Source: Anaerolineaceae bacterium
GTDB lineage: Bacteria > Chloroflexota > Anaerolineae > Anaerolineales > Anaerolineaceae
Direction: 5' to 3'
NCBI GenBank assembly: GCA_002702705.1
Contig: PABH01000029.1
Span: 1-64,000 of the forward strand
DNA length: 64,000 bases
The first letter of the stretch is position 1; the number at the start of each line of letters is the position of its first letter. Positions 26,140 to 32,937 of this stretch are shown here, one piece after another. Made by a program: the position numbers and the translations under genes. Below the pieces are notes generated by a model. The model had not been told where the DNA came from and made no database searches. It worked only from the letters and a program-made list of their open reading frames with translations.

Positions 26140-26823
26140 TTATTGTGATTTTGCGAGTAGATCTTGGATCTTTCGGCTCAAAATCTCATATTGGCCGCCG
26201 CCTTCAATATATTGTCCATTTACCAACAGTGAAGGAGTACCCCGTAACCCTATTTTTGTAGCTTCTAAAGTTTCAGCCTTTACTTTGTCAGAGTATTTAC
26301 CAGAAGCAAGACACTGGTTGAACTCATCCGTTTGTAAGCCCAATTCAACGGCAAAGGTATTTAGGTTTTCTTTTGTAAAAGCACCCATGTTTTCACCACT
26401 TTGTGAGGCATACAACTTGTCATAGTAATCCCAGAATTTTCCTTGTTCATTGGCACATTCAGCAGCTTCAGCTGCCCAAAACGATTCTTCACCAATGAAT
26501 TGAAAACTCCGGAAGACAAACCGAACCTGGCCAGTGTTTACGAAATTTTCTACCAGCTTCGGTTTTACAGTCGAAGCGAACCGGGCACAGGCAGGACATT
26601 GAAAATCGCCGTACTCAACGACAATGACCGGTGCATCTGCAATCCCCATACTTTTATCCTGACTAACAACGACCGGTTCGACTTTATCCGGGTTTTGTCG
26701 CAGCGCGATTGCAATCACCCCAATCACCACCATGGCTATTAACCCAATTACCCACCAGTTGGTTTGTTTCCGTTTATTTTTAGACTGTTTACTTGTTTTT
26801 GACTTTGCGTATTTCTTAGCCAT
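26140..26823 (-). CDS. Membrane-anchored DsbA-family protein
   Basis: 227 residues from ATG 26823, with AAGGTG upstream. A Lys/Ser-rich cytosolic start (KKYAKSKTSKQSKNKRKQ) and one helix (WWVIGLIAMVVIGVIAIAL) anchor the DsbA domain. The active site is CPAC in YGDFQCPACARF, and the cis-Pro loop is GTPSLLVNGQ. It is the last gene of the redox operon, 26 bases after the CcdA-thioredoxin gene, which could recycle it. Confidence 0.88.
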   Translation of the reverse strand: MAKKYAKSKTSKQSKNKRKQTNWWVIGLIAMVVIGVIAIALRQNPDKVEPVVVSQDKSMGIADAPVIVVEYGDFQCPACARFASTVKPKLVENFVNTGQVRFVFRSFQFIGEESFWAAEAAECANEQGKFWDYYDKLYASQSGENMGAFTKENLNTFAVELGLQTDEFNQCLASGKYSDKVKAETLEATKIGLRGTPSLLVNGQYIEGGGQYEILSRKIQDLLAKSQ

Positions 26824-26849
26824 ATCATCACCTTTTTTGTGTCTTGTTC

Positions 26850-28055
26850 TTATAGAACCCATATTAAAAGGGCTAATCCAATAAGCGCCATGATCCCACC
26901 TGTAATCCCACGTACCTTGTGGGACGAGGCCCGTTCCCATGCCTGGATCTTTGCTCCCATAATTGGATTGAGCGCTAAAGCCAGGATTATAATCAATGGC
27001 AAGATAAACATCAGGTTATATAATGCCAGATATCCAAACCCTTCCCAGAAACCTGCCTGGCTGCTCAACAAGCCTAAAATGGCAACATAAGGACCGCCTG
27101 AGCATGGAAAACTTTCAAGCCCCATCAAAGTTCCCAGCACAATCGTAGCGGGTATAGTCGCCCGATACATCCATTTCTTGAGCCCGTCTTTCCCAATTTC
27201 GGGAATTTCCAAACGAATGGGAAACTTGGGAAATAAAGCTCCAAAGAGATTGGTCAGTCCAAACAGGAGTAGCAGAGCTGCCCCCAATTGACCAAGCCAG
27301 TGGCCTTGTACAAGGGTGGTCGCGCGAAGTAATCCCAGACCTACCAGAAAATAAACGATGTAGACGCAGGCAATATAGATCATCCCCATCCGGGCAATAG
27401 CTGCCCGTCGCTTGCGTATCGTGAAAAGGAATGTAACAAAGAAGAGCAAAATTGCCATTGCGCATGGATTGATCCCATCTACTAGGCCGGTGAAGAGGAC
27501 GGCCGGAAGGATCGTGCTCTTAGGGGTGGAACTATTTGTAATTTTAAAGGAAGACAGGTTGGCCTGATACCATGCCAGGTAGGTAGAAATAGGTTCGCTG
27601 GCTGTGTACGACTGGATTGGCCCAGCGAAAGCCCAGGCTTTATATCCGTCTCCTTCACCTTCTTCACTGTAAATCAAAATCTTGTCGGGTAATTCCGATG
27701 CTGATGCTGACAATAAGGCTTCTACAACCTGTCGGGGTGGTTCTCCCTGCAAAATGATCCGGTTGTCATCAATGAAGGTCACTAAGTGACTTTGAAGATC
27801 CAATGGAACACCCAAGTTGTCATTTTGTTGATTCAATTCCTTACGGGTCTCACGCTGGTTGATATAATCCTTGCGGACCAATTCCACTTGGTATGCCTTG
27901 AAGATTTCCTGCAATTCTCCATTGATGTATGTTTCGCACTCATCACATGCTTCGTTGTAATATACAACCGCTTGTCGGGAGTTAGATGTTGCTTGGACAG
28001 TAAGTGTGGATAGGGCAAGCGTTAAAAGAAAAAGGATTGAAAGTGTTTTTTTCAT
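26850..28055 (-). CDS. CcdA/DsbD-like transmembrane protein with N-terminal thioredoxin-like domain
   Basis: 401 residues. A signal peptide is followed by a thioredoxin-like domain with C37-x2-C40 (YYNEACDECETY). A second half has about six to eight helices, with Cys helices DGINPCAMA (C198) and ESFPCSGGPY (C318) as in CcdA/DsbD electron carriers. The layout suggests transfer of electrons from the cytosol to the extracytoplasmic domain or to the DsbA next door. It lies between the ferredoxin and the DsbA gene. Confidence 0.82.
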   Translation of the reverse strand: MKKTLSILFLLTLALSTLTVQATSNSRQAVVYYNEACDECETYINGELQEIFKAYQVELVRKDYINQRETRKELNQQNDNLGVPLDLQSHLVTFIDDNRIILQGEPPRQVVEALLSASASELPDKILIYSEEGEGDGYKAWAFAGPIQSYTASEPISTYLAWYQANLSSFKITNSSTPKSTILPAVLFTGLVDGINPCAMAILLFFVTFLFTIRKRRAAIARMGMIYIACVYIVYFLVGLGLLRATTLVQGHWLGQLGAALLLLFGLTNLFGALFPKFPIRLEIPEIGKDGLKKWMYRATIPATIVLGTLMGLESFPCSGGPYVAILGLLSSQAGFWEGFGYLALYNLMFILPLIIILALALNPIMGAKIQAWERASSHKVRGITGGIMALIGLALLIWVL

Positions 28056-28079
28056 GGTTAGTTTATCCTAAGATCAATG

Positions 28080-28433
28080 TTAGCAACAGGTTAATGTTTT
28101 TGGCACTTCGCCTTCTGCAAGTGGACCAAAAGGGTTGCCGTATTCGCGAATATTGGCAATCATCGCCTGGTTGGCTGGTGTTTCTATACTGGCTTCAATT
28201 AACCCTGCTCGAAGTGTTTCTCCGGCTGGGTCATGTCCGATAGGACAAACAACCCGGCAACTTCGGCATAATGTGCATTGATAGAAAACCAGGGTTCGGA
28301 TGCCAGCGGATCCCAGGATTGCTCGGCCACGGGGACTGAATTCTTCTTGTTGTTGGATCTGAAACACCGGACATGCTTCACGACAGAGCCCGCACTCGGT
28401 GCAGACGGGATTTTCAAGAAGTTCTATTAGCAT
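28080..28433 (-). CDS. Small 2[4Fe-4S] ferredoxin-like subunit (GlcF/HdrC-like)
   Basis: 117 residues. Two Cys motifs, CTECGLCREACP and CTLCRSCRVVCP, bind two [4Fe-4S] clusters as in HdrC, GlcF and LutB. Alone it lacks the CCG domains of GlcF, which are encoded separately at 29600. It overlaps the FAD oxidase gene by seven bases. It likely transfers electrons between the flavoprotein and the CCG subunit. Confidence 0.85.
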   Translation of the reverse strand: MLIELLENPVCTECGLCREACPVFQIQQQEEFSPRGRAILGSAGIRTLVFYQCTLCRSCRVVCPIGHDPAGETLRAGLIEASIETPANQAMIANIREYGNPFGPLAEGEVPKTLTCC

Positions 28434-29596
28434 AGCTTCCCCCGATTAAAGACACCTTGCGGGTCAAACTGGGTTTTCAGTGCCTGCGCCTTCACCTTCA
28501 TGGCCAGACTGGCCCACTGCCGCTTTTTAAGGCCCATCCCATGTTCGCCGCTGATTTGCCCACCTGATGCTGAAACCCGGTGGTAAAGTTCGAGGATACG
28601 GGGATCACCTTGTAAAAACCTAGGATGGATAATGCCAACACCTAGGTGCCCAAAAACTGGGATACCCTGAATGGCAAGCCAGTCCAGTGTGCTTTCTTGG
28701 GCCTCTGGCAAGATTTGTGGATCCTCTGAAATTGGGAAGCCAGCCAGCGTTAATCGGGCTGAAAGGCTTTCGCGGGCTCTCCAGATTGCAGCCATATCAA
28801 TTGTGGCTTCGACTTTACCGTCCATACTGTGAAATTCGGCCAGCAATGTATGTTTGGCTGCCCATCCCACCAAAGCGGCAGCCTGTGGATTGATGTATTC
28901 CAACGCAGAAAGTGATGGATTTGCTTTCAAGTGTGCGACTTCCTCCAACATACCTTTTAAGTCATCAAAACAAAGCAGTGTGAGCGAGCGTTGCTGAGGA
29001 ATCTCTGTAAGATGAAGGGCGGCTTGAACGATCATGCCCGTGATTCCTTCCCAACCCGCGATTCCTCCCCGGTCACCGGCAGATAAATGATGGATAATGC
29101 CTTTTCCATCGATCAGGGTTGCTTCTGCAACCCACTCGTCTATCCGACCATACCGGACAGCGTGCAGACCGGCTGCATTGGTGGCGATCATCCCACCGAT
29201 GGTTGCGGAGCGATGACTGCCCGGGATCACCGGAAAAAACAACTCAAAGGGTTTCAAGTGGCGGTTAAGCAGGTCAAGTGGAACACCAGCTTCTACGACG
29301 ATCTTATTCGCTGGAATGTCTATGGAACCAATTTGCCTTAAACGTGCTGAGTCGATGACGACTGAGTTTTGAGGTGTGGCACCGCCACAAAGGCCGGTAC
29401 CGGCTCCTCTAGGAACCAGGTCATTTCCGGTTTCGGCAGCCCATCCTATCAGACGGATCATATCCTCTATTGTTTCCGGCCAGACAACCGCCAGGCACTC
29501 TCCGTGGATTCGAGATGCATCTCGGCTGTAAGCAATCCGGGTTTCGTGGCGAATGGAGATCTGGTCGGGATGAAATAATGAGAGTAATTGCTGCAT
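28427..29596 (-). CDS. FAD-linked oxidase (GlcD/D-lactate dehydrogenase-like)
   Basis: 389 residues. The FAD-binding-4 domain shows VPRGAGTGLCGGA, VVDSARLRQI and PGSHRSATIGGMIATNAAG. The C-terminal domain ends in SGEHGMGLKKRQW and FDPQGVFNRGKL. It is shorter than usual GlcD (~480), mainly in the cap region. The family oxidises 2-hydroxy acids such as glycolate or D-lactate, but the substrate cannot be read from sequence. The gene is four bases from the CCG gene and overlaps the ferredoxin gene. Confidence 0.85.
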   Translation of the reverse strand: MQQLLSLFHPDQISIRHETRIAYSRDASRIHGECLAVVWPETIEDMIRLIGWAAETGNDLVPRGAGTGLCGGATPQNSVVIDSARLRQIGSIDIPANKIVVEAGVPLDLLNRHLKPFELFFPVIPGSHRSATIGGMIATNAAGLHAVRYGRIDEWVAEATLIDGKGIIHHLSAGDRGGIAGWEGITGMIVQAALHLTEIPQQRSLTLLCFDDLKGMLEEVAHLKANPSLSALEYINPQAAALVGWAAKHTLLAEFHSMDGKVEATIDMAAIWRARESLSARLTLAGFPISEDPQILPEAQESTLDWLAIQGIPVFGHLGVGIIHPRFLQGDPRILELYHRVSASGGQISGEHGMGLKKRQWASLAMKVKAQALKTQFDPQGVFNRGKLC

Positions 29597-29599
29597 CGG

Positions 29600-30316
29600 T
29601 TAAATCCTCCCTTCCAAAGTGGATATGATGGCTTCGCTAAACTCCAAAACCTGTATATGGACGGCATTTTCTTTGAAGTGAGCATAACACAACGGGCATG
29701 ATGTACATAACATTCCATTACCCACCTGTGCAAGACGCGCTTGCGCTATGGAGTTTGCCAAGTCAGGATAATTTGACTTAACCCCGCCACCCGCACCGCA
29801 ACATAGGCTCATAACACGGTTGTCCGGGAGTTCGGTGACTTGCCAGCCTGCTTGATGAAGGAGGTGTCGCGGCTCATCATAGATCCCTGACCACCGGCCC
29901 AAATGGCAAGGGTCATGATAGGTTAATGGCCGGTTTTGATTAACCTCATATTTTGATGGGTCTCCAGTACTTTTTTCCGATAATACCTGGGTAGTATGAA
30001 CTACATCCATCTGGTACTCGTTCTTCAAGGTGTGATAACATCCAGGACAATTTGTAATGATTTTCGTGACACTAAAACGCGCAAAAGTCTCAAGATTTTT
30101 AGCCTTCAATTGTTCAAAATCCTGTTGATATCCGGCTCGCCTGACAGGACTGCCGCAACATTGAAGCTCGCCGGGTAAAACGATGAAATCGATCTTTACT
30201 TGCCTTAATAGTCGTTCATATCGTTCCTGCACCTCAGGCAATGCATAGCGAGTAACACAGCCTGGGTAATAGAGGGTGTTCCCACCGCTAAACTTACTGA
30301 AAAAATTTTTAAACAT
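29600..30316 (-). CDS. CCG-domain iron-sulfur protein (HdrB/LutA/GlcF C-terminal type)
   Basis: 238 residues with two CCG domains: LQCCGSPVRRAGY with a preceding YYPGCVTRYA, and SLCCGAGGGVKSNYP with YHDPCHLGRW. Such pairs bind a non-cubane or [4Fe-4S] cluster in HdrB and appear in LutA and GlcF. Together with the ferredoxin and FAD subunits it forms a split GlcDF/HdrBC-like complex. It is four bases from the DUF1573 gene. Confidence 0.85.
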   Translation of the reverse strand: MFKNFFSKFSGGNTLYYPGCVTRYALPEVQERYERLLRQVKIDFIVLPGELQCCGSPVRRAGYQQDFEQLKAKNLETFARFSVTKIITNCPGCYHTLKNEYQMDVVHTTQVLSEKSTGDPSKYEVNQNRPLTYHDPCHLGRWSGIYDEPRHLLHQAGWQVTELPDNRVMSLCCGAGGGVKSNYPDLANSIAQARLAQVGNGMLCTSCPLCYAHFKENAVHIQVLEFSEAIISTLEGRI

Positions 30317-30319
30317 CGG

Positions 30320-30742
30320 TTATCCTTCTGGATTCTCGATAATGACTCGGAACTCAGCTTCCGCTTCTGGCGTTACCGGATCATTGCTGCGCAAATAGAT
30401 AATGCGCTGGATATCGCCAAACAAGTTATCTTCTACTGGGTCAAACTTGGCGGTTAATTTGGCCGTTTCTCCTGGAGGAATGCTGTCCTTCTCTAATTCC
30501 GCTGAAGTGCATTCGCACGAAATGCTAACTTTTTCAATCACCAGGTCCGCATTGCCAATGTTTTTTACCTCGAATACGAGATTAATCATCTGTTGAGGTT
30601 GTGTTCCTAAATCCTGTAGAGGTGGCTCAACGCTTATTTGTGGAACTTTACTGCTGCATGCAGCTAAAAAACTTGTCATGAGGAGCAAAAAGAACAGCAA
30701 GGTTGGACTTAAGTAAGATGGTGTTATTTTACGAATAGCCAT
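30320..30742 (-). CDS. DUF1573 lipoprotein
   Basis: 140 residues. Signal with lipobox (FLAACSS), then a single Ig-like DUF1573 domain (IGNADLVIEKVSISCECTSAELE, PPGETAKLTAKFDP, IIYLRSNDP). The Cys pair in SCECTS is the conserved family feature. Function is unknown. In this operon, a possible substrate or scaffold for the neighbouring Dsb and rhodanese proteins. Confidence 0.8.
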   Translation of the reverse strand: MAIRKITPSYLSPTLLFFLLLMTSFLAACSSKVPQISVEPPLQDLGTQPQQMINLVFEVKNIGNADLVIEKVSISCECTSAELEKDSIPPGETAKLTAKFDPVEDNLFGDIQRIIYLRSNDPVTPEAEAEFRVIIENPEG

Positions 30743-30762
30743 ATTGTATCCTTCAAAATTGA

Positions 30763-31227
30763 CTAAGGATTGGTTTCTACCGGAAAGTCAGCTTCTTGCC
30801 AGGCTCGAAAACCACCTAAAATGGGGGTAACTTTCTTGAAACCGTTATCTAACAAAATGCGCGCCGCACGGGCGCTTGATTCTTCTGACGGTCAGGTACA
30901 GTAGGTTATGATCCAGGCATTCGGATCAAGTTCTTTATATTGGTTGCCCAATTGAGCGAGTGGATAGGAGAGGGCATTAGGAACATGTGCTTGGGCATAT
31001 GAACTACTGTCTCTGACATCAATAAATACCGCTTCGCTCGATTTGTAAGCAGCGAGTGCATCATCTAGGGAAACTCTCGGAATCTCGGGAAATGTCTCTT
31101 CCTCAGCCGCTAGGGGTTGTGAACTTGGGGAGGTGTTTTTTGGTTGCGCACCTAAAACGATAGCAGAGGCTAGCATAACTATGCCTAGAAATATCAGAAC
31201 AATCGGTAAATAAGCTTTTTTCTTCAT
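30763..31227 (-). CDS. Exported rhodanese-like protein, candidate selenoprotein (in-frame TGA)
   Basis: Residues 1-111 include an anchor helix (PIVLIFLGIVMLASAIVLGA) and a rhodanese domain (EAVFIDVRDSSSYAQAHVPNA). The frame meets TGA at 30892-30894 in YCT-TGA-PSEESSARAA. It then continues without a frameshift through a normal rhodanese end (ILLDNGFKKVTPILGGFRAW) to TAG at 30763-30765, 154 residues in all. As I recall, homologues often have YCxCPxE here, so the TGA stands for the second Cys. A GC-rich hairpin lies 16 bases after the TGA (separate entry). Selenocysteine at residue 112 explains this without a broken gene. A recent nonsense mutation is the alternative. It heads the redox operon. 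Confidence 0.6.
30861..30875 (-). promoter_or_regulatory. bSECIS-like hairpin after TGA
   Basis: On the coding (minus) strand GCGCC-CGTGC-GGCGC makes five G-C pairs with a five-base loop, the loop having G at its second position. It begins 16 bases after the TGA, with the loop about 21 bases away. Bacterial SECIS elements have a short stem and a loop with an early G at this distance. The stem also encodes Ala/Arg-rich residues, so a chance hairpin is possible. Confidence 0.45.
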
Positions 31228-31368
31228 TTTTCAATACCTTTTTCAAAAATAGAATCAGTCAATTAAATCTGTATCAGAATCTAGGAATCATCCTAAAATC
31301 GATACATAATTCGGTGTTGCGGGGCAGAAATAACCAATCCCGCTACCAAATACGTCTAAATTTTTTGA

Positions 31369-31650
31369 TTAAGCTATTGGGGGTTGAAGAATGGAAAAAA
31401 TGAGTCCTAAATGTGCTATTTGACTATCAATTGCCTTAAATAATGCAAAATGGAGCGGGTTTGTTGTAGTAGAATTTGGAACCCAAATTCCTAATTGCAA
31501 AGTGCAAACCAAGCAATCGGTATCACCGGTTGAACCAGGATTTTCTTGAACCGTGCAGCAGGACGAAGGCGCAGTGATATGGCCAGCTAAATTGATGGCA
31601 GTAAGTAGTAAAAGTATGATTAAAAGGGATCGTTGCACAGTTGTAACCAT
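31369..31650 (-). CDS. Small exported Cys protein, unknown
   Basis: 93 residues. A hydrophobic N-terminus (SLLIILLLLTAINLAGHI) is followed by Cys residues in SSCCTVQE and TDCLVCTLQ, then a second hydrophobic-rich tail. It recalls the small exported Cys protein at 8349, though the sequences are not clearly homologous. It lies upstream of the rhodanese gene, with a 141-base gap. A real gene is plausible but not proved. Confidence 0.45.
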   Translation of the reverse strand: MVTTVQRSLLIILLLLTAINLAGHITAPSSCCTVQENPGSTGDTDCLVCTLQLGIWVPNSTTTNPLHFALFKAIDSQIAHLGLIFSILQPPIA

Positions 31651-31812: not shown

Positions 31813-32937
31813 CTAAATTTTTAAACCATTCATCAAAGACAATGAAACTACCAAATTGTTGATAATTGCCAGATTATGCCCTGTGTTACCAACCACCGTG
31901 CGCGTAGCATCCTCACCCAGGGTAATATCACGGCGATAATGCAATTCATTTTCAATCCCCCAATATTTTCGTAGAAGTTTGATTAACTGCTCCGGGCTGG
32001 CTTTGTCGGGAGATAAACTGGTTAGCCCATAAACGACTTGGGTTGTTTTTCGTTGCCCCTGGTCATGCCACACCTCACGTTCCAATCGGAATACTTGAGC
32101 TACATGCGGCCAATCGAGATAAGTATTGAGAGATTGGCTAACCATAATGGATCGTTTTTCAATGCGACCATGTCGTTTATTCGTTTTATCAAACCCCTGT
32201 TGGAATTGTTTGGAGAGCGGTCTTTCTTGTTTTAGGTTCGCTATTTCATTGGCAAACAATTTCTTAATAGCCCATTCAGTACGCGCTTGGTTGCCTTTGA
32301 CTGTCCAAATAAAATCTCCTCCAGCTTCGACAATTTCAACGCTGATGTTTCGTTGGGTATGCATCGCATCTCCAATAATGATTGCGCCATTCAAATCGAT
32401 ACTTTCTAGAAGTGTTGGCGCTGCTGTGATTTCATTTTCTTTTCGATCGACAGCCACCTGCATCAAAACAAGCCCTGATCCTGGCAATTAGGCGGCTAAT
32501 AGGTGTTCCCCGCGTGTTTCTTGCCGCACAATGGTGCCTCGCAAGCTCTTTCCATCAATACTGATGATGATCTCTTCTCCATCAGGTATGTGGCTTCGTT
32601 GATACTCCCCCATGATCTTTTCAAACATGTCGGATTCTAGTGCTTCTAGTATCCGACGGATTGTACAATGATGCGGCACTTTCTTCCGTGGCAGTTTTAG
32701 CATCCAGACTAATCCTTCTTCCCGATGTTTGATCCATTCCGCTATCCCCGTTGGATGATTTTCTCCTCCCATTTTTCCCAATAGGATTAATAATAATATC
32801 GTCGCCAGATGATAGCGCACTCCTTTTGGTTTTCTTGGATCACTTATGCGTTCTAAATAGGCATATAAACTGTTTAGATCAAATACAAAACCCCAATGTG
32901 TACAATTTTCTTTTGCGCCTATCGTGATAAAATCCAT
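31813..32937 (-). pseudogene. ISAs1-family transposase with in-frame stop
   Basis: The N-terminal half (DPRKPKGVRYHLATILLLIL, then HIPDGEEIIISIDGKSLRGT) and C-terminal half (NGAIIIGDAMHTQRN, FIWTVKGNQ, YWGIENELHYRRDITLGEDA) are in the same frame. They are separated by TAA at 32488-32490, where homologues have Tyr (HLLAAY). The DDE residues are in the two halves. A single base change would restore a full protein of about 375 residues. Recent inactivation is likely since ends and target duplication are intact. Confidence 0.85.

Follow-up and report, generated by a model that had tools for sequence, protein, structure and literature searches.

Evidence for a selenocysteine codon in the gene for a predicted extracytoplasmic rhodanese of an Anaerolineaceae bacterium

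A 64,000-nucleotide stretch of an Anaerolineaceae genome (assembly GCA_002702705.1, contig PABH01000029.1; referred to here as the window) contains a rhodanese gene interrupted by an in-frame TGA at 30892-30894 on the minus strand. The comparative analysis reported here indicates that this TGA is almost certainly a selenocysteine (Sec) codon and that the gene encodes a functional, extracytoplasmic, membrane-anchored rhodanese. A first-pass annotation, made from the sequence alone, had proposed the gene as a candidate selenoprotein, and that reading is now supported by the sel genes of the same genome, by the same TGA in relatives, and by compensatory changes in a hairpin past the codon.

Results

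The reading frame and its product

The coding sequence (30763..31227, minus strand) runs from an ATG at 31227 to a TAG at 30763-30765. Translation with the TGA as U yields an uninterrupted 154-residue product with Sec at residue 112; without read-through the product has 111 residues and ends inside the active-site loop. Pfam Rhodanese (PF00581) covers residues 55-146 of the read-through protein (E 6.9e-15, 55.8 bits vs a gathering cut-off of 22.2), which agrees with the earlier observation that the domain is continuous on both sides of the TGA with no frameshift. An N-terminal hydrophobic helix at residues 7-26 (31150..31209, minus strand), predicted in the AlphaFold model and probably a membrane anchor or signal, is followed by a linker and then by the rhodanese domain, which is expected to face outside the cytoplasm while tethered to the membrane.

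The AlphaFold model was built from 42 sequences, has a mean pLDDT of 90.3 and adopts the rhodanese fold. Foldseek matched it to solved rhodanese structures, among them BH2092 (3nhv) and GlpE (1gmx). The codon for Cys110 lies at 30898..30900 (minus strand), and alignment pairs this residue with the GlpE active-site Cys, which we take to be the catalytic Cys, and with the Cys of an IITYC stretch in 3nhv. Sec112 is two residues past Cys110 in the stretch ITYC-T-U-PSEESSARAA and sits, in the model, in the loop preceding helix 116-127. GlpE and BH2092 are Cys-only single-domain rhodaneses that share the fold and the Cys110 position with the window protein, but they have neither Sec nor Cys at the +2 position (loops CYHGNSS and CWGPACN) and their aligned chains have no counterpart of its N-terminal anchor.

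Sec decoding machinery in the same genome

The first-pass annotation had stated that a genome with no sel genes would speak against its proposal. The window is contig 31 of a 5.9 Mb genome, and selA (536.6 bits), selB (377.2 bits), selD (361.8 bits) and tRNA-Sec (72.4 bits, above the Rfam cut-off) were all found in it, so this objection failed. ARAGORN also reported a tRNA-SeC with anticodon tca. The selD gene (L018, contig 22) has its own in-frame TGA at an SSCAGU motif, and selenophosphate synthetase is itself a predicted selenoprotein in this genome. Across the class, 261/298 genomes gave a tRNA-Sec match at the threshold used, and co-occurrence with tRNA-Sec is not discriminating at this level. 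The 52 best TGA matches described below are held by 44 genomes; two of these 44 show no tRNA-Sec match, G169 and G292 (the latter not among the listed matches), and both are incomplete.

An open frame across the TGA would also be seen if the codon were read as another amino acid, either by stop-codon reassignment or by general read-through. However, neighbouring genes have long standard frames under table 11, the genome holds dedicated Sec machinery, distant homologues have Cys at the same column (CxC), and the SECIS-type hairpin described next is explained by Sec decoding only. Stop-codon reassignment was rejected on the normal reading of the adjoining genes and the presence of Sec genes, and decoding as some other amino acid is considered very improbable overall.

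A conserved SECIS-like hairpin downstream of the TGA

A bacterial SECIS-like hairpin, GCGCC-CGUGC-GGCGC, is predicted at 30861..30875 (minus strand) from pairing conservation and the bSECIS constraints. The stem pairs 30875-30871 with 30865-30861 and the loop CGUGC occupies 30870-30866 with its G at 30869; it begins 16 bases past the TGA and is exactly the 5-pair GC hairpin with a loop G that was described at first. The accessible text of PMC13188914 gives bSECIS elements an apical loop of 3-9 nt, a stem of 4-16 bp, a UGA-to-loop distance of 16-37 nt and a G at the first or second loop position. The window hairpin falls within all of these, with a 5-nt loop, a 5-bp stem, a UGA-loop distance of 21 nt and GU at loop positions 2 and 3.

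All five pairs are complete in 55/56 distinct class sequences and the remaining one forms four, whereas synonymous recoding with local codon usage (500 rounds) gave a mean of 2.82 and a maximum of 8 sequences. Changes on both sides were seen in three of the five pairs, none of the 500 shuffles equalled the observed alignment on any of five measures, and versions with a slid partner paired worse (59% at most vs 99.6%). One sequence (L070) has a whole-codon switch in the stem that is compensated on the opposite side. The sequences are related and the changes are not independent events; these compensatory changes are nonetheless direct evidence for a constraint on the RNA. Three sequences in which the TGA is off the column by one or two residues (L099, L109 and L111) were excluded from the hairpin counts. 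A secondary set from the pattern scan, partly fixed by the search pattern itself, had five pairs in 104/117 sequences (5.2 expected), and sequences without TGA at the column had five pairs in 0/15; as their peptides differ, the null was also 0, and this control does not discriminate. Rfam at gathering thresholds found no match in the window, and the support for the hairpin is therefore comparative.

Conservation of the TGA in relatives

The same genome contains two further TGA rhodanese paralogues, 59% and 47% identical to the window protein; the more similar one is encoded in a second copy of the gene row found in the window. Among 298 genomes of the same class, 238 had some rhodanese match; the 52 top-scoring matches all carry an in-frame TGA, and a stop-free match first appears at rank 53. 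Since the same TGA is present in two paralogues and in dozens of other genomes, a read error at this codon, one of the doubts raised at first, is ruled out.

Sixty regions were fetched because they bear a TGA, and in the alignment of these with the window the TGA is at the same column in 58/61 sequences. The sequences L099, L109 and L111 have Cys at the aligned column and a TGA within the next two residues. Among 216 tblastn hits, a set enriched for TGA by design, the codon for residue 112 is TGA in 175 and another codon in 18, with 23 hits that do not cover this residue set aside. Cys was found in 3 of the 18 (YCACP type, CxC, distant homologues). The first-pass statement that homologues often carry Cys at this position was thus not borne out: close relatives carry TGA, and just three distant CxC-type homologues were seen.

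At least 39 residues continue past Sec in 170/170 extracted read-through genes, and the GG..W motif is largely retained in 40 aligned read-through proteins. Decay after the TGA in close relatives had been named as an outcome that would count against a selenoprotein; the relatives instead have the same TGA and an intact domain after it. These data also bear on whether the TGA is a nonsense mutation and the gene a pseudogene beside decayed transposases. The first-pass annotation was correct that decay is found nearby, with a split ISAs1 transposase close by on the upstream side, but the rhodanese gene itself is without decay. Both paralogues in this genome share the TGA, as do the 52 best class matches, the C-terminal half is intact, and compensatory changes keep the hairpin. 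Decay of this gene was rejected on the conservation of the TGA, the domain and the hairpin, and a pseudogene is the least probable of the readings weighed here, its likelihood being close to nil.

A pattern scan of public genomes returned at least 118 stretches, 80 of which, by their record titles, belong to Chloroflexi (several classes), Acidobacteria, Deltaproteobacteria, Rokuibacteriota, Nitrospirae, Nevskia and others. The nearest named relative among the matches listed is Anaerolineaceae bacterium UBA9135 (L172), 73% identical. No relatives were confirmed in the viral contigs searched.

Search for a Cys form

Nearly all selenoproteins have Cys homologues, according to the accessible text of PMC13188914. 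Two patterns that differ in the key codon alone, TGA vs TGY (Cys), were searched for in 301 phylum genomes; both require SARAA-type context, and more distant CxC rhodaneses fall outside these counts. The TGA pattern was found at 22 places in 16/301 genomes and the TGY pattern in 0/301, and a reversed control gave 0 in every genome for both patterns. No Cys homologue with the same signature was therefore found in the 301 phylum genomes sampled.

Relation to known Sec rhodaneses

Table 1 of PMC13188914, in its accessible part, distinguishes selenoprotein rhodanese forms 1-5, and rhodanese-related selenoproteins are also reported from ocean metagenomes in the accessible parts of PMC1088965 and PMC2398784. 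Form 3 (CxU, model NF041203, rhodanese_LYCAU, 'rhodanese-related (seleno)protein') is like the window protein in having a single rhodanese domain and Sec two residues past the catalytic-position Cys (YC-x-U). The first-pass annotation had called the placement of Sec unusual, but Sec rhodaneses, including CxU at the same relative position, are already catalogued in the accessible part of PMC13188914. From the same text, forms 1 (UxxS), 2 and 4 (UxxG) and 5 (TsoB, UxxxxU) have Sec in the rhodanese domain, as here, but in motifs that differ from the window CxU, and TsoB, unlike the window protein, is fused to DsbD and has two Sec.

The highest-ranking NCBIfam match of the window protein is NF041203 (E 4e-20), although the protein has the motif ITYCTUP rather than LYCAU. 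Membership was rejected, since the window protein scored 71.8 bits where the curated cut-off is 115. Using E <= 4e-33 as a rough equivalent of the 115-bit cut-off, 2/40 relatives scanned match NF041203, and the window protein is not among them. Because its score lies below the cut-off, the window protein is best placed in a separate though related lineage that the curated model does not cover; its CxU arrangement is of a known kind. In the titles and abstract openings of the open-access papers searched, and in the accessible part of PMC1794560, no report of this Chloroflexi/Anaerolineae Sec-rhodanese or of the double-Sec rhodanese described next was found.

Members with two TGA codons

In 7/298 class genomes, from seven genera, two TGA codons are separated by one codon (UxU; L097, L104, L108, L272, L273, L274 and L275, in G013, G145, G007, G251, G022, G255 and G235). 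In these the Cys110 position is also TGA, giving YUTU and once YUAU. The form was found by inspection, and a pattern search returned the same seven; completeness and contamination limits were met by only 2/7 of these genomes. The downstream GG motif is present in 7/7. The same hairpin follows the second UGA with unchanged spacing and lies 27 nt from the first, within the quoted range, and apparently a single hairpin would serve both codons. It is this putative UxU form, in which the catalytic-position Cys is replaced as well, that stands out as most novel.

In L099, L109 and L111 the TGA comes immediately after the Cys (C-U-PP), which makes a third version of this active-site loop.

Gene neighbourhood

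The rhodanese gene is followed on the minus strand by genes for an exported DUF1573 protein with an SCECT motif (30320..30742), a Cys-rich CCG-domain protein of HdrB/GlcF-like type (29600..30316), a GlcD-like FAD oxidoreductase (28427..29596), a 4Fe-4S dicluster protein (28080..28433), a multi-membrane-span protein (26850..28055; SfLAP matched weakly, short of the Pfam cut-off, and the CcdA/DsbD-like label comes from inspection only) and a DsbA-like thiol oxidoreductase with a CPAC motif (26140..26940). The DUF1573 protein is a distant relative of OS_HP2/DUF1573 (seleno)proteins (40.4 bits, cut-off 100) and the DsbA-like protein is a relative of the Rcas_1661 thioredoxin-like (seleno)lipoproteins (136.3 bits, cut-off 190), but both are below these cut-offs and have Cys, not Sec. 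Upstream is a gene for a 93-residue exported Cys-containing protein (31369..31650, minus strand), which adjoins the rhodanese in 4/175 loci.

The gene row at 26850-31650, with genes for the small Cys protein, rhodanese, DUF1573, CCG, FAD, Fe-S and membrane proteins, is present as duplicated and diverged copies on contigs 31 and 46 (L052). An ISAs1-family transposase gene, split in two frames and apparently inactive, lies at 31813-32937 (minus strand) just upstream of the row.

In other genomes, neighbours vary: of the 175 loci examined, a heavy-metal P-type ATPase was found near 22, ArsR-type regulators near 13, SCO1 near 8 and PCuAC near 7; these counts are lower bounds, as flank lengths differ, and family names come from one representative per cluster. 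A second, Cys-only rhodanese lipoprotein was found near 11/175 loci (L054, L056, L057, L058, L061, L112, L129, L166, L178, L203 and L211), as the next gene downstream in 10/11, and its loop in L166 is IIVYCLTSG. It is a possible partner of the Sec-rhodanese.

Discussion

The model proposed here for the Sec-rhodanese is that SelB, carrying Sec-tRNA, would decode the TGA through the hairpin directly downstream. In the mature protein, Cys110 in the active-site loop would take up sulfane sulfur as a persulfide, and Sec112 would act as a fast selenolate partner, either resolving this persulfide or serving as the sulfur carrier, via a transient Cys-Sec bond. Electrons would be supplied by outward-facing thiol partners, for example the DsbA-like protein and the membrane protein encoded alongside the rhodanese. 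The enzyme would then be a persulfide/polysulfide sulfurtransferase or reductase and not a plain thiosulfate:cyanide rhodanese, a role that, as judged from sequence features, has roughly an even chance of being correct.

The first-pass annotation had placed the gene at the head of a thiol-redox operon. The DUF1573, CCG, FAD, Fe-S and DsbA-like genes downstream of the window gene fit this, but the argument is lineage-specific because neighbours differ between genomes. The varied neighbours elsewhere leave room for a metal-related role, in which the protein would be a selenoprotein for copper/mercury-type metal binding or metal-stress defence with Cys and Sec as a soft-metal ligand pair. The P-type heavy-metal ATPase, ArsR-type, PCuAC and SCO1 genes near loci of other genomes are in line with such a role. 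However, no such genes are found around the window, where the redox genes listed above are present instead, the active-site loop is of the rhodanese type, and the cluster links were drawn from unequal flank lengths and related genomes. This makes a metal-related function unlikely, though well ahead of a pseudogene or of decoding as another amino acid.

Taken as a selenoprotein, the window protein probably, with somewhat better than even confidence, represents an outward-facing, Sec-dependent rhodanese lineage with no close Cys form, in which some members would have a diselenol active site, Y-U-T-U, specified by a pair of UGA codons that share one SECIS. Since the Cys-codon pattern gave 0 and the TGA pattern 22 places, searches based on Cys/Sec pairs may miss this lineage. 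Standard gene calling with table 11 would stop the gene at residue 111, which makes this lineage of outward-facing selenoenzymes prone to misannotation in Chloroflexota that are poorly cultured and, going by the pattern scan, also in Acidobacteria, deltaproteobacteria, Rokubacteria and others. The UxU members would allow one to ask, within a single fold, what Sec does at the nucleophile vs at +2, and also whether two UGAs can be decoded by a single SECIS.
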